From the NCBI GenBank assembly GCA_903827245.1, contig CAIKHO010000024.1:1-41450 (forward strand): a stretch of 41,450 nucleotides of DNA. Direction: 5' to 3'. Below are positions 35,434 to 39,920 of the stretch, one piece after another (positions within the stretch are counted from its first letter, which is position 1; each line of letters begins with the position of its first letter). A model generated the notes under the pieces. It made no database searches, was not told where the DNA came from, and worked only from the letters and a program-made list of their open reading frames with translations. A program made the translations under genes and the position numbers. Source of the DNA: an uncultured Opitutia bacterium (GTDB lineage Bacteria > Verrucomicrobiota > Verrucomicrobiia > Opitutales > Opitutaceae).

Positions 35434-35462
35434 ATGGGGCCCATGAGTCTCATGGGCCCCAT
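35434..35462. repeat. Perfect 14-bp palindrome after sucD
   Basis: ATGGGGCCCATGAG, one base (T), then CTCATGGGCCCCAT: a perfect 14-bp inverted repeat with a single central base, 32 bases after the sucD stop. It is followed by TTGGTCCCATAAT, a partial repeat of the motif. It lacks a T-run, so it is not a classical terminator. Confidence 0.75.
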
Positions 35463-35550
35463 TGGTCCCATAATCAGCCTCCGTCTTATGACATAGTTTG
35501 CGCTGGCCAAGCGCCACCCCGGCGGTTTTCTTCACCCCCGCATCAGGAAC

Positions 35551-35673
35551 GAACCGGCCCTCCACAAGCCGGTTCTGCCAACCGGGCCGGGAGCGGCCAC
35601 GGTGGATCGGGGGAGACCCCGGATGTGCGCAGCCCGCAAGGGAGGCGAACCAAGAAACGCTCCCGAAGACGAT
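35551..35673 (+). ncRNA. Structured non-coding stretch before a terminator (unassigned RNA candidate)
   Basis: Between sucD and the small integrase-like gene lies a 343-base gap with no credible gene. From 35551 it shows three stems in a row: GAACCGGC/GCCGGTTC (35551-35575), CGGGG-GAGA-CCCCG with a GNRA tetraloop (35608-35621), and GGGAGGCG/CGCTCCC (about 35640-35664). A strong intrinsic terminator follows directly. This layout fits a small RNA or a leader RNA. I could not match it to a known class: RNase P, tmRNA, SRP and common riboswitch signatures are not evident. Weak cobalamin-riboswitch-like strings (CCCGCAAGG, CCCGAAGAC) occur but are not convincing. Confidence 0.35.
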
Positions 35674-35706
35674 ACCGACCTGATGCCCAGGTCGGTTTTT
35701 TGTTTT
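35674..35706 (+). terminator. Strong Rho-independent terminator
   Basis: ACCGACCTG (35674-35682) and CAGGTCGGT (35688-35696) form a perfect 9-bp stem with a five-base loop, followed by TTTTTTGTTTT. It is the only textbook intrinsic terminator recognised in this window. It ends either sucD transcription or a separate small RNA, and lies 38 bases before the ATG of the small gene at 35745. Confidence 0.85.
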
Positions 35707-35744
35707 CATCACCCTGGTGCGCGAACCTCAACCCTTCACGCATC

Positions 35745-36002
35745 ATGTCCACGACCACCACCCTCCCAGCCACCGCCACTCCCGCCCTCCGCGTCCGCGC
35801 GGAGAACCCGAATCACCATCTCTGGAACAACCACGGCACGTGGTTCCTGCACTACACCGTGCATCCCACGCCCTTCACCAAGGAGCGCCTGCGGCGCACC
35901 CTCGGGACGAAGGATGTGCGCGTCGCCCGCACGCGCCGGGATATATTCTTCGCGCACCTCACGGGACAGACCACAGCCCTCTCCCCGGAGGTCGCCGCGT
36001 GA
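35745..36002 (+). CDS. Orphan small protein resembling a tyrosine-recombinase N-terminal (arm-binding) domain
   Basis: The predicted 85-aa protein has a Thr/Ala/Pro start, then NHHLWNNHGTWFLHYTVH and ERLRRTLGTKDVRVARTRRD. The order 'short beta strands - R-R-x-L-G-T-x-D - helix' is typical of the AP2-like arm-type DNA-binding domain at the start of tyrosine recombinases (xLYxRxGxWYxRxxxxGKRxRxSLGTxDxxEAxxR). No core-binding or catalytic recombinase domain follows; the frame stops at 36002 and the next sequence is repeats. It may be a free-standing regulator of recombination or the remnant of an integrase. A terminator and structured RNA candidate lie just upstream. Confidence 0.55.
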   Translation: MSTTTTLPATATPALRVRAENPNHHLWNNHGTWFLHYTVHPTPFTKERLRRTLGTKDVRVARTRRDIFFAHLTGQTTALSPEVAA

Positions 36003-36043
36003 ATGCCAAGCCGGAACGATGCCGTTGAAACGTAGCGATCGGT

Positions 36044-36113
36044 GTAGCAGCCGAGGTCACGAGGCAGGGTTTGGTGACTCACCTCAAACCAGCCTCCTCA
36101 CGTCGGCTGCTAC
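36044..36113. repeat. 70-bp GTAG...CTAC palindromic repeat, copy 3
   Basis: GTAGCAGCCGAGGTCACGAG begins it and GTCGGCTGCTAC ends it. Read in reverse it differs from copy 1 (6978-7047) at about four of 70 positions, although the two lie 29 kb apart, so they moved or were copied recently. Confidence 0.85.
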
Positions 36114-36137
36114 CGGCGACTGCATCGTTCCGCCTGA

Positions 36138-36191
36138 GTTGGAGCAGCGACCTCCCGGTCGCTGTCCGAATGCGAACGGGAGGTCGCATCC
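36138..36191. repeat. GTTGGA-type palindromic repeat, copy 2
   Basis: GTTGGAGCAGCGACCTCCCG with a local GCGACC/GGTCGC hairpin is followed by the inverse partner AACGGGAGGTCGCATCCCC. It is better preserved than copy 1 at 18424. Confidence 0.7.
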
Positions 36192-36442: not shown

Positions 36443-37132
36443 TCACGGGATCTTCAGCCGCTGGCCGGGACGCAGCGCGTTCTCACCCTTCAGGACGTCG
36501 CGGTTCGCGTCGTAGATTTCCTGCCAGCGGTTCGGCGTGCCGTAGTAACGGAGGCTGATGCGTGTCAGTGAATCGCCTTCGGCCACGGTGTGAATGCGGT
36601 CCGGCGCGGGCGCCGGGGCCGGGGCGGCCGGAATTGAGGAGGGTGCGGTGGTTCCGCCAAAGTTCGCGGACGCGCCGTTGATGATCCGGGCGGCCGACGC
36701 GATCTGGTCCAGCGTGCCCTGGGCTTGGCGCAGGCGGGCGCTGATGGCGTTGTTGTCCTGCTGCAATTGCGCGATCCGCGTGGTGCGGTCGCGGTCGATG
36801 GCCTGCACGGTGTCGTTCAGCCGGGCATTCTCGTCGCGAAGACCGGCCAAGTCACGCTGGGTGCGGGCCAGCTGTGCGTTGACCGAATCCAAGCTTGCTG
36901 CGCGCTGCTCCGCCTCCTGCCGCGCCTGTTCGCTCTGGACCAGGCGCGTGCTGTCGGAGCGAAGCGCGGCCAGCTGGGTGTATAAGCCGTCGATCTGGGC
37001 CTGCAGGTTCTTGTTGTCGGTGGTGAGCTTCTGGTTCGCCCCGGTCAGCTCGGCCACGCTGGAACCATGTTCCTCGGCGGCCTTTTCGCTTTCGGCGAGC
37101 TTGGCTTTCAGACCGGTGAGTTCATCGGTCAC
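36443..37132 (-). CDS. C-terminal piece of the coiled-coil gene, with LysM domain
   Basis: This 229-aa frame from GTG 37132 continues the coiled coil (LKAKLAESEKAAEEHGSSVA) and ends in a LysM peptidoglycan-binding domain (HTVAEGDSLTRISLRYYGTP ... NALRPGQRLKIP). A Pro/Ala linker separates the two. In the same frame, coding character continues upstream of 37132 (QTVALAAANDQLQAQLKG), so this is the tail of the larger protein and GTG 37132 is not a natural start. LysM suggests attachment to peptidoglycan. Confidence 0.6.
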   Translation of the reverse strand: MTDELTGLKAKLAESEKAAEEHGSSVAELTGANQKLTTDNKNLQAQIDGLYTQLAALRSDSTRLVQSEQARQEAEQRAASLDSVNAQLARTQRDLAGLRDENARLNDTVQAIDRDRTTRIAQLQQDNNAISARLRQAQGTLDQIASAARIINGASANFGGTTAPSSIPAAPAPAPAPDRIHTVAEGDSLTRISLRYYGTPNRWQEIYDANRDVLKGENALRPGQRLKIP

Positions 37133-37136
37133 GCCC

Positions 37137-39920
37137 TTAAGCTGAGCCTGAAGCTGGTCGTTGGCCGCGGCCAGCGCGACGGTTTGCCGCGGCGCGGTCG
37201 CTGGAGGTATTCCGGACCTTCAGCTCGGCGATGTCGGCCTGCGCCCGGTCAGCCGCGGTCTTCATCTGCCCGAGCTGCGCCTGCAGCGTGGCCTTGTCAT
37301 CCGTGAGCTTCTGGTTGACGCCGGTCAGTTCGGCCACCGCGCCATTGTTCGTTTCCACCGCCTTGTCGGACTCGGCCAGCTTGGCCTTCAGGGCGGCCAG
37401 TTCGGTCTGGGAGTTCTGCGCCTGGGTACGGGCGGTCTCCGACTCGGACTTGAGCTGGGTCAGGCTGCGCTCGGCATTGGAAAGCTTGGTGAACATGTCC
37501 TCCACCTGCGTGCGCAGGTTGTCCCGCTCCTGGGTCCAGCCGGCGGGCGCCCGGGCCGCGCTGCGGGCGGCATCGAGGTCGGCCGCCTGGGCCTTGAGCT
37601 GGTCGGACAGCCGCTGCTGGTCCGCCTTCAACTTGTCGTTGGCCGCGGTCAGGTCGCGCACCCGCGCGCCGAGCTGGTCAAAATCCGCCTTGGTCGTGGA
37701 ATCATCCGCGCCCTTGGCCTCCATCAGGGCGCGGTTGGCCTCGGCGAGAGCGCGATTGGCCTCGCGGGATTTCTGCAACTGGGTGGCGAGCGAGGAGAGT
37801 TCCTGCGCGGCATTCTTGCGGTCGTCGTCCTGCTGGGTTTCCAGCGAACGCACCTGGCCCTGCAAGGTCTGCATCTCGAGCCTCATCGCGTCGTTCGGCG
37901 CGGCCCGGGCCGTCGCCGCCTGGGCGGCGAGCGCGGCGGCGGCACTCTGCTTCGACACCTCCAGGTCCTTTTCCAGCTCCTGATTTTTTCCCTGGAGATC
38001 GGCGATGGATTTCCCGGCGGAGTCGAGCTGGGCGTTGAGTTTTTCCACCATGTCGTGGTCGGCGGCCTGCGTTTTTTGGGCCGCAGCCAGCGCCGTCTGA
38101 AGCTGGCCAAGCTGGGCCGCCTGATCGGAGCCGGTTCGCGACGCCGCGGCCAGGCGCTGGTTGTCCGCCGCCAACCGGTCGTTTTGCGCCGTCAGGTCGC
38201 CGTTGGCCTGCTGGAGTTTTTCAACCGCTGACTTCGCCTCGGCCAGCTGCTGCTGGGCCTGGGCCCCGTTGCCCCGGCTGGCTTCAAGCGCGACAATCTG
38301 GGCGGAGAGCTTCTGGTTTTCCGCCGCCAACCCGGCGTTCGCCTCCTCCTGTTTCTGGCCGGCGGATTTGAGCTCGGCCAGCTGCCCGCGCATCGCCTGC
38401 TCGTCCGCTATTTGTGCGGACAGGGTTGAGATCTGGTTTTTCGATTCGGCCAGCTGGGTGCGCAAGGTGGCCAGCTCACGGTCGGCGGTGGTGCGGGTAT
38501 CGGCCAGCTGCTGTTGGGCCACCGTGGCGGCCCGGGCCTCGGCCTGGGCCTTCGCGGCCGCGGACTGCGCAGCCGCCAGCTGCTGGGTGAGAGCTTCGAC
38601 ATCGGCCGAGCCCTTCGCATTTTGCGCCTCGGCGTTCCTGGCCTCGCTCAGCTGCGTCGTCATCCGGGTGATCGTGTCCTTCGATGTCGCCTGCTCGCGC
38701 TGGGCGGCGTCGAGCGCAGCCTTCAGGTCCGCGGCCTGGCTGCCACTGCGCCGGCTGACCTCAAGATCAGCCGCCAGCTTCTGATTTTGGGCCACAAGTT
38801 CATCGTTCTTCGAGGCCAGCGTTTTGGCGGAATCGGCCGACGCCTGCGCCGCCGCGAGCTGCTTGGTGAGGGTCTCCACATCGGCTGCGCTCCTGGCGGA
38901 TTGCGTCTGGGCCTTTTTTGCATCGGCCAGCTGGCTCGTAAGCTGGGCGATCGCATCCTTCGACGCGGCCTGCTCGCGACGGGCGGTCTCAAGCGCCGCC
39001 TGCAGGTCTGCGGCCCCGCTTGCGCCGCGGCGGCTGGTGGCCAGGTCCGTCCCCAGCTTTTGATTTTGCGTGCCGAGTTCTTCGTTCTTCGCGGCCAAGG
39101 CCTTGTTCGCGTCGGCCAGCGCGCGGGTGTCAGCCAGGGCCTTCGTCGCGGCGGACTGTGCGGCCTCGGTGTCGCGGCGGGACGCGGCAAGGTCGGTCTC
39201 AAGCTGGCCGAGTCGCGTCGCGTCGGCCGGATTGGCCTTCGGGGTGGCGGAAGCTTGCGCCAGCTTTTGCTCGGCTGCGCTCAGGGCTGTCTGGGATTTT
39301 TCCAGGGCTGCGGCCTGTTCCTGCAGGCGGGATCGAAGCTGCGCGGCCTCGGCGGCCGTCACCGCCGACGAACCGGCGGTGGCAAGGCGCTGGTTTTCCT
39401 GGGTCAGGCGCTGGTTGGCCGCACGCAGATCCTCCACGGTGCGGTTGAGTTCGGCGAGCTGGGCGTTGTCCGCCGGTAGCGCGCCGGTGGCGGGCCTGGC
39501 ATTGTCCGTACCGGCCAGTTTATCCTGCGCCTGGCGCAATTGGCGGTCGATCGAGGCCAGCTGGATCGTGGAACGCTTCACCTCGTTGTTGAGCCGGGTA
39601 TTGTCGGCCAGCGCCGAGGCGAGCCGCGCCTGCAGGTCCTCGGTGGTGGCGTCGGGCTTGGCGCCCTCGGCCGCAGCCGGCGTGGTAGGCGCGGCTTTCG
39701 GCTGGCTCGCGCGGGCGTCAGTCAATTGCGCCGAGAGATCGGTCACCCGTTGCACGCTCGCATCCCGTTCCGCGCGCAGGGCCGTCAATTCGCCCTGCAG
39801 GCGGGTGATTTGCGCCTGCAAGCCGGCGGCAGCGGGATCAGGCACGGTCTGGGGCGGGGCGGATTTGAGCCGGGTGTTGGCTTCCGCGAGCTGGGCGGCC
39901 GAGTCGCGCGCCTGCTGCAA
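37137..39920 (-). CDS. Central coiled-coil piece of the interrupted gene
   Basis: The open frame after the TAG at 40320 continues without interruption to the frameshift. The piece from ATG 39920 is 927 aa, almost entirely heptad-like and rich in Ala, Gln, Leu and Lys. Internal repeats are visible: a block with NQKLGTDLATSRRG...LTKQLAAAQASADSA recurs as NQKLAADLEVSRRS...LTQQLAAAQSAAAKA. It ends in out-of-frame residues (NRRAGRGQRPASGSA) caused by the shift near 37190. No signal peptide is present, so on its own this piece would not be exported. Confidence 0.5.
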   Translation of the reverse strand: MQQARDSAAQLAEANTRLKSAPPQTVPDPAAAGLQAQITRLQGELTALRAERDASVQRVTDLSAQLTDARASQPKAAPTTPAAAEGAKPDATTEDLQARLASALADNTRLNNEVKRSTIQLASIDRQLRQAQDKLAGTDNARPATGALPADNAQLAELNRTVEDLRAANQRLTQENQRLATAGSSAVTAAEAAQLRSRLQEQAAALEKSQTALSAAEQKLAQASATPKANPADATRLGQLETDLAASRRDTEAAQSAATKALADTRALADANKALAAKNEELGTQNQKLGTDLATSRRGASGAADLQAALETARREQAASKDAIAQLTSQLADAKKAQTQSARSAADVETLTKQLAAAQASADSAKTLASKNDELVAQNQKLAADLEVSRRSGSQAADLKAALDAAQREQATSKDTITRMTTQLSEARNAEAQNAKGSADVEALTQQLAAAQSAAAKAQAEARAATVAQQQLADTRTTADRELATLRTQLAESKNQISTLSAQIADEQAMRGQLAELKSAGQKQEEANAGLAAENQKLSAQIVALEASRGNGAQAQQQLAEAKSAVEKLQQANGDLTAQNDRLAADNQRLAAASRTGSDQAAQLGQLQTALAAAQKTQAADHDMVEKLNAQLDSAGKSIADLQGKNQELEKDLEVSKQSAAAALAAQAATARAAPNDAMRLEMQTLQGQVRSLETQQDDDRKNAAQELSSLATQLQKSREANRALAEANRALMEAKGADDSTTKADFDQLGARVRDLTAANDKLKADQQRLSDQLKAQAADLDAARSAARAPAGWTQERDNLRTQVEDMFTKLSNAERSLTQLKSESETARTQAQNSQTELAALKAKLAESDKAVETNNGAVAELTGVNQKLTDDKATLQAQLGQMKTAADRAQADIAELKVRNTSSDRAAANRRAGRGQRPASGSA

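Follow-up and report, generated by a model that had tools for sequence, protein, structure and literature searches.

Riboswitches of the SAM-I type that use a terminator as expression platform are off-switches in which helix P1 competes with an antiterminator. SAM riboswitches are known mainly for the direct control of enzymes and transporters. In the excerpted descriptions of the SAM-I/IV class, a single P2 helix without an internal loop and the presence of both P4 and P5 are given as hallmarks (PMC2864571; PMC6890682). For SAM-I, the ligand pocket comprises positions 6-8, 11-12, 44-47, 57-59, and 87, according to the excerpted text of one of these sources (PMC6890682).

Here, an RNA is described that resembles this sensor family and precedes a protein similar to the piece with which tyrosine recombinases grip DNA, which suggests a metabolite sensor that switches a DNA-binding regulator. 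On balance, we favor a SAM-I/IV riboswitch that controls a small, probably DNA-binding protein of the methionine/SAM regulon and thereby relays low SAM levels. Homology, covariation, complementarity, and gene association were observed; from these, we infer SAM as the ligand, the way in which it switches the gene, and that the protein binds DNA and acts as a regulator.

Organization of the locus

The locus lies in the window, i.e., the whole 41,450-nt stretch of DNA that was analyzed, which is contig C24 of a 3.55-Mb host genome. Here, the region from sucD to a convergent LysM gene contains an inverted repeat with 14-bp arms, the structured leader, a strong terminator, and an ORF of 85 aa, which is the only gene that the aptamer precedes. 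The features are:

35434-35462: inverted repeat ATGGGGCCCATGAG-T-CTCATGGGCCCCAT, 14-bp arms with a 1-nt center
35486-35493, plus strand: recurrent motif TTATGACA, 53 nt before the aptamer; a weak, putative element
35538-35664, plus strand: SAM-I/IV-type riboswitch aptamer (RF01725 match, model R1, covariation)
35540-35544/35622-35626, plus strand: P1, GCATC paired with GATGT
35540-35547, plus strand: GCATCAGG, 5' strand of P1 and putative antiterminator strand, with an 8-bp match to 35679-35686
35551-35575, plus strand: P2, a single helix without an internal loop
35577-35605, plus strand: P3
35589-35595, plus strand: 5' strand of the pseudoknot in the P3 loop, GGGAGCG, pairing with 35658-35664
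35608-35621, plus strand: P4 with a GAGA loop
35628-35647, plus strand: P5
35658-35664, plus strand: 3' strand of the pseudoknot, CGCTCCC, pairing with 35589-35595
35674-35702, plus strand: intrinsic terminator with T-run (hairpin 35674-35696; 9 pairs, 6 of them G-C)
35679-35686, plus strand: putative antiterminator partner CCTGATGC inside the terminator, complementary to GCATCAGG
35713-35724, plus strand: second copy CCTGGTGCGCGA past the terminator, complementary to the aptamer 5' strand in a 9-nt run
35736-35747, plus strand: start-codon segment TCACGCATCATG, predicted to pair with 35715-35724 with one G-U pair and one mismatch
35745-36002, plus strand: 85-aa ORF of an orphan recombinase-arm-binding-like protein, predicted beta-beta-beta-alpha

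The perfect 14-bp palindrome after sucD, which had been noticed in an earlier sequence-only reading of this DNA, is present. It was rejected as a part of the module on the grounds that it exists as a single copy in the host genome and that its arm is absent from all fetched loci other than the records of the window itself; perhaps it forms a hairpin at the sucD end.

A sigma-70 consensus promoter was not found between 34000 and 37500. Of 89 distinct regions upstream of the aptamer, 30 contain the sequence TATGACA, compared with 0.7% of shuffled ones; it mostly lies 53-68 nt before the aptamer, and in two cases at 96 and 120 nt. By eye, it was also seen upstream of metK in two loci, one from a genome with and one from a genome without the 85-aa protein (L258 and L284). 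TTATGACA is a possible promoter or regulator site.

Directly 3' of the 85-aa gene starts an interspersed palindromic repeat of approximately 130 bp (36010-36138). As a self-complementary unit it was counted on both strands, and the 40 candidates scored out of 175 gave at least 81 match rows in the host genome; it looks like a REP/MITE-type family. Further downstream on the minus strand (36443-39920), the LysM ORF and a 927-aa coiled-coil ORF resemble, by eye, one gene split by a frame change near 37130-37200.

Identity of the RNA

At the gathering threshold, Rfam yielded no match in the window, and neither a tRNA nor a tmRNA was found there. A riboswitch appeared on a permissive scan: the best match of the window RNA is RF01725 (SAM-I/IV) with 28.9 bits (E = 0.0082), which is below the cut-off of 41.1. 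The comparison with Rfam that had been proposed earlier thus named a riboswitch family, albeit under threshold. The same reading had assumed an RNA gene with three clear stems; P2, P4 with its GAGA loop, and P5 are indeed present, but P3 had been overlooked, and rather than being a gene, the RNA serves as 5' leader to the 85-aa ORF and is of the SAM-I/IV riboswitch type by Rfam. Our own covariance model R1, whose training set includes the window, scores the RNA at 114.8 bits.

Among 38 genomes, RF01725 matches 14 at E <= 0.1 and only one over the cut-off, so that annotation at the cut-off would overlook most near-relative aptamers. Fourteen of the 17 RF01725 matches in these genomes lie directly upstream of a homologue of the 85-aa protein. 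In control genomes, two of 14 match, both under the cut-off. When 20 loci with homologous aptamers were compared with RF01725, 17 matched at E <= 0.1 (all except L148, L165, and L014) and seven exceeded the cut-off, five of which stand beside the protein. Rfam was also searched with 40 loci that have the protein but lack an R1 aptamer; the first 20 showed no match at E <= 0.05, and two of the second 20 (L205 and L236) carry RF01725 aptamers over the cut-off that model R1 had missed. SAM-I itself (RF00162) was dropped as the identity of the RNA, as 37 of 38 genomes were without a match and the remaining one gave a weak match.

The SAM-I/IV anatomy is found in the window, i.e., a single P2, P4, P5, and a pseudoknot between the P3 loop and a 3' strand. 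For mapping of the pocket onto the window RNA, a numbered sequence was used that we take to be that of SAM-I. By eye, 12 of the 13 pocket positions named in the excerpt are identical to this sequence, and position 59 is altered together with its pairing partner. The window RNA is very probably a diverged SAM-I/IV riboswitch aptamer and would belong to a class that is already known; SAM would be its ligand.

A SAM-clan fold with a shifted ligand preference, e.g., for SAH or another SAM-derived metabolite, would fit a regulated gene that is unusual for SAM riboswitches, and one pocket base pair and a neighboring position differ from the SAM-I sequence used here. However, metH-like genes and metK operons are found behind sister aptamers, and the pocket agrees with SAM-I in all positions but the one that changed with its partner (positions as excerpted from PMC6890682). 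Such a shift is considered improbable.

Folding and covariation

For the leader (35538-35702), the folding energy is -77.9 kcal/mol, compared to a mean of -62.7 kcal/mol in shuffled sequences (sd 4.5, z -3.4), and none of 200 shuffles reached so low a value, in line with the structured RNA proposed from the sequence. Across 16 chosen diverse sequences, 84.9% of cells are paired (shuffled, 74.3%; slid, 35.0-43.5%) and 21 of 38 pairs show double-sided changes. In an alignment of 58 distinct rows, which was fitted to the model and is therefore biased toward the structure, pairing amounts to 92.4% vs. 68.7% in shuffled and 33.9-45.0% in slid controls; double-sided changes affect 23 pairs vs. 19.9 in shuffles, a number that 10 of 500 shuffles also reached.

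Covariation in relatives, one of the checks suggested earlier, is hence positive. It extends over P2-P5, with double changes in P2, P4, and P5. In the pseudoknot of the P3 loop, four of six counted pairs change on both sides and 80% of cells are paired (16 sequences). P1 is nearly invariant and shows no double change in either alignment.

Terminator and switching

By our own reading of the lists, the hairpin at 35674-35696 is the best among the terminator sites listed for positions 1-40000, where two scans returned 20 and 24 sites vs. 14.1 and 13.6 in shuffles; the textbook terminator described before can thus be retained. A T-run pattern 3' of the aptamer was found in 99 of 110 locus records (duplicates included; several misses are short records), although a T-run alone does not prove a terminator.

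GCATCAGG in P1 and CCTGATGC within the terminator form an 8-bp match. When the RNA is folded before the 3' arm of the terminator exists, the antiterminator pairing is present (-70.5 kcal/mol, for nested pairs of the ligand-free RNA). With the 3' arm, P1 plus terminator reach -76.7 kcal/mol vs. -71.8 kcal/mol for the antiterminator, approximately 5 kcal/mol apart. An unconstrained fold without P1 (-76.9 kcal/mol) equals the P1-containing fold, and a leader fold one base off contains P1.

Among 58 diverse loci, the aptamer 5' strand is more complementary to the next 75 nt than expected from shuffles in 39 (p <= 0.05), and the mean run is 8.7 nt; these loci are related, and one record that ends at the aptamer (L212) was counted as a miss. 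In a recount, 57 loci were testable, 46 of them with a T-run. Runs of at least 6 nt are present on both sides of the T-run start in 40 of these 46 loci. The longest run is located after the T-run in 38 and before or in the T-run in seven, while one locus lacks any 6-nt run. In the window, the runs measure 9 nt after and 8 nt in the terminator. The partner copy after the terminator changes along with the aptamer strand, for example in L229, L014, L018, and L034, the latter without a T-run. L188 and L189, whose leaders precede metH-like genes, show a start region of similar arrangement ahead of the first ORF.

Since the longest run follows the T-run in most loci, the copy past the terminator, near the start codon, is the better-supported partner; for the antiterminator, the support comes from the 8-bp match and from the recurrence of this match, because the longest run lies before or in the T-run in so few. 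The switch might therefore act mainly or only on translation, with the aptamer 5' strand pairing with the copy before the start codon and the terminator being leaky or secondary, and the position of the window's own 9-nt run agrees with this. However, the window terminator is strong and holds a perfect 8-nt partner, and most T-run loci carry runs on both sides, so that an exclusively or mainly translational switch is regarded as unlikely.

SAM-dependent termination is the likely outcome. As GCATCAGG is complementary to CCTGATGC and to the second copy, SAM probably turns the 85-aa gene off. Both complementary copies would be in use, at transcription and translation, and the start-codon segment TCACGCATCATG possibly gives the translational layer.

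Co-occurrence of RNA and protein

The 85-aa protein was found in 16 of the 38 genomes searched, including the host genome, and at phylum level in 42 of 194 genomes at E <= 1e-5. A scan of genome contigs gave 271 relatives, of which 80 were kept. The aptamer pattern occurs in all 80 kept loci and in 110 of 117 locus records overall (duplicates included). The misses are L012, L015, L018, L033, L034, L035, and L117; the L015 record starts too near the gene for a complete aptamer.

In 286 genomes of the class, model R1 under stricter filters detected 69 RNAs in 60 genomes, and the protein profile yielded 136 matches from 105 genomes, including a few spurious ones. In 52 genomes, a total of 57 of the 69 RNAs are followed on the same strand by a protein match, at a distance of 38-230 nt (median 105). 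Twelve RNAs and 79 protein matches are unpaired, the latter under stricter filters and including spurious matches. A mostly sub-threshold group of SAM-I/IV aptamers hence stands chiefly before a tiny conserved protein, and the strong co-occurrence that the sequence-only reading had called for bears out its idea of a compact regulatory module.

The strong terminator 3' of the RNA and the co-occurrence itself would also fit an independent, trans-acting RNA gene that ends at the terminator and has the protein as its partner. Against this, Rfam places the RNA in a cis-regulatory family, one of its strands has complements in the terminator and in the start region, it lies upstream on the coding strand in all 57 paired cases, and a homocysteine-methyltransferase gene can replace the protein. 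A separate RNA gene is thus highly improbable.

Further arrangements were observed. Second aptamer copies occur in two relatives (L034 in G002 and L033 in G019). The L034 aptamer precedes an ORF and, behind it, a metK-like reading without a continuous frame, and the L033 gene is truncated by the contig end. Another locus (L217) carries two aptamers on the minus strand (396-525 and 974-1105) within a 2.5-kb stretch. In G204, a homologue without an aptamer has a different, terminator-bearing leader by eye (L195).

The 85-aa protein

The likeness to the N-terminal arm-binding domain of tyrosine recombinases, which had been noticed from the sequence, is real but distant. The window protein matches DUF6538 at E = 0.011 with 15.9 bits. 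As the Pfam gathering threshold is 27, it is named arm-binding-like and is not assigned to DUF6538. Within the family, all 17 sequences reach E <= 1 against DUF6538 (lowest value, 6.6e-5), and hhalign aligns the family with the N-terminus of a recombinase (L288) at a probability of 93.1; this N-terminus itself matches DUF6538 at E 0.015. Four weak matches of the protein profile A2 were examined. Two are recombinase N-termini with Phage_integrase behind (L288 and L289; E 2.2e-4 and 6.3e-4), and they are no stronger than the two chance matches in unrelated proteins (L290 and L291; E 4.5e-4 and 2.4e-4).

The predicted structure consists of three strands (25-29, 32-42, and 45-52) and a helix (58-79) at medium confidence (pLDDT 72.6). 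For this model, Foldseek found no significant match among solved folds, VIA Z was at most 4.8, and a PDB sequence search returned nothing below E 0.25. None of the 17 members matches NCBIfam, and PHROGs gave 0 matches for the window protein. In sequence terms, the protein resembles a stand-alone, distant relative of recombinase arm-binding domains. DNA binding appears likely because of the weak DUF6538 matches, the hhalign alignment to L288, and the predicted three strands plus helix.

The absence of a catalytic domain, also part of the sequence-only reading, holds in the window: tblastn with two integrase pieces found no such domain there and one in 170 loci. The same search showed no integrase pseudogene downstream of 36002. 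In 82 Opitutaceae loci, viewed with flanks of at most 4 kb, sucD lies upstream in 29, a convergent LysM coiled-coil gene lies downstream in 43, both are present in 16, and neither in 26; in one locus (L063), sucD and the LysM gene are in reversed arrangement.

These data do not support the mobile module or integrated-element remnant that had been considered. A truncated integrase with its leader would match the likeness to a recombinase N-terminal domain and one homologue in a phage-like contig (L117, by eye). The near absence of integrase domains, a protein profile that matches 105 of 286 genomes, and a neighborhood common to part of the Opitutaceae loci stand against it, and a remnant can be given hardly any credence. 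Two IMG/VR contigs were viewed by eye: in L117 (1277-1519), the homologue lies between ParB/methylase-like and terminase-like ORFs and the aptamer pattern was not found, and in L116 (66-498), aptamer and homologue lie near a cytosine-methyltransferase-like ORF.

Gene neighborhoods and the link to methionine

Eight of the 12 unpaired RNAs were examined, of which three were readable and five ambiguous or cut. One aptamer directly precedes a homocysteine S-methyltransferase gene (L187; PF02574, Pfam E 4.9e-67), and two are followed by a short ORF and then, by eye, a homocysteine-methyltransferase-like reading (L188 and L189). In a relative (L018), the aptamer also stands before a homocysteine-methyltransferase gene (PF02574, Pfam E 3.5e-33).

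The order RNA-protein-metK is present in L016, L017, and L232. In L016 and L017, the stop codon of the protein gene overlaps the metK start, and both genomes have another metK elsewhere. Among 68 loci, metK is the next gene after the protein gene in two (L215 and L232). In L206, RNA and protein are followed by a Cys_Met_Meta_PP gene, i.e., a Cys/Met PLP enzyme. In 11 of the 68 loci, the protein gene is preceded at 94-303 nt by a same-strand gene that falls into this BLAST group. Pfam analysis covers one of these 11 loci plus L206, L215, L232, and L016. The remaining loci among the 68 have other or ambiguous neighbors. In family f21 (L176-L179, possibly Akkermansia-like), an L28-like reading precedes the protein gene by eye.

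The nearby or co-regulated metK, Cys/Met PLP enzyme, and metH-like genes place the 85-aa protein in the methionine/SAM regulon. That it is a DNA-binding regulator of methionine/SAM genes appears plausible to us, with the chances about even. Alternatively, with the riboswitch acting as described, the protein might tune SAM synthesis directly by binding to RNA (its own leader) or to a partner protein, for example MetK. The overlap with metK in L016 and L017 suggests co-expression, the fold model matches no solved DNA-binding structure, and the recombinase likeness is distant. However, DUF6538 is weakly matched by all 17 members and by a recombinase N-terminus, hhalign aligns the two, and metK follows in only two of 68 loci. 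An RNA- or MetK-binding protein is therefore a minority reading, to which we assign a rather low probability.

Two candidate routes to metK or to a regulon were also followed. Direct control of metK by the aptamer was rejected for the host genome, where R1 gave one match under E 0.01 (and three weaker ones, E 0.04 to 9) and the metK leader carries another motif. By eye, 14 of 20 metK leaders (L257-L284) share ATCA, approximately 17 nt, and TTGAT; this motif was seen in eight of 10 genomes with and six of 10 without the 85-aa protein, and is possibly an ArsR/SahR-like operator. As a private operator, the inverted repeat of the leader yielded scattered sites in 38 genomes, none tied to methionine genes among the sites inspected, and no regulon.

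Proposed mechanism

In the relay that we favor, plentiful SAM would bind the aptamer and keep GCATC in P1, upon which the terminator at 35674-35696 would form and the 85-aa gene would be off. When SAM is scarce, GCATCAGG would pair with CCTGATGC in the 5' arm and loop of the terminator, allowing the polymerase to read through and the 85-aa protein to be made. Between terminator and start codon, the other complementary copy shows conservation that is at least as clear; it probably contributes control at translation or, in some relatives, serves as the principal partner. Most likely, the protein would then act as a small DNA-binding regulator that relays the low-SAM signal to other promoters. 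Against this model stand the sub-threshold score of the window RNA, the sub-threshold matches in control genomes, the invariance of P1, the equally good fold without it, the unpaired RNAs and protein matches, the metK motif that is shared irrespective of the protein, and the scattered sites of the leader's inverted repeat.

A wider version of this model is put forward tentatively and with less than even odds. Here, the SAM riboswitch, acting on both termination and the start codon, would be the sensor half of a metabolite-to-promoter relay, and a domesticated recombinase DNA-binding domain would serve as a widespread methionine/SAM regulator in Verrucomicrobiota. Such a relay could account for the coordination of many methionine genes in a genome that has just one aptamer. 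In addition, an uncharacterized protein family gains a testable physiological role, and a DNA-binding piece of recombinases may have been recruited into regulation.

Comparison with known systems

Among open-access full texts, judged by titles and the openings of abstracts, a SAM riboswitch paired with this protein was not found, nor were reports of the regulated gene, a wide RNA-protein pairing, or a two-copy platform. In open-access full texts, a SAM riboswitch in Verrucomicrobia and DUF6538 were likewise not found.

The closest described RNA is the SAM-I/IV riboswitch (RF01725), with which the window RNA shares, as far as the excerpted description goes, the core sequence, the P1-P5 layout, P2 without an internal loop, and the P3-loop pseudoknot (Weinberg et al., 2010; PMC2864571). 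Methionine genes behind sister copies are a further common trait. The window RNA differs in its score below the Rfam cut-off, in the orphan arm-binding-like gene that it would control, and in the two downstream copies complementary to the 5' strand of P1. With the SAM-I riboswitch (RF00162), it would share the off-switch logic of P1 vs. antiterminator, whereas its P2 is without a kink-turn loop and an extra pseudoknot is present.

On the protein side, the weak profile similarity and the predicted three-strand sheet plus helix are shared with the N-terminal arm-binding domains of tyrosine recombinases (DUF6538/Arm-DNA-bind_3). In contrast to these, the 85-aa protein stands alone, without a core-binding or catalytic domain, and would be under metabolite control. 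By role alone, it may be likened to MetJ, SahR, and SamR, as described in the excerpted source (PMC4239095), in that it would likewise regulate methionine/SAM genes; here, however, the signal would be sensed by an RNA in the regulator's own leader and not by the protein.
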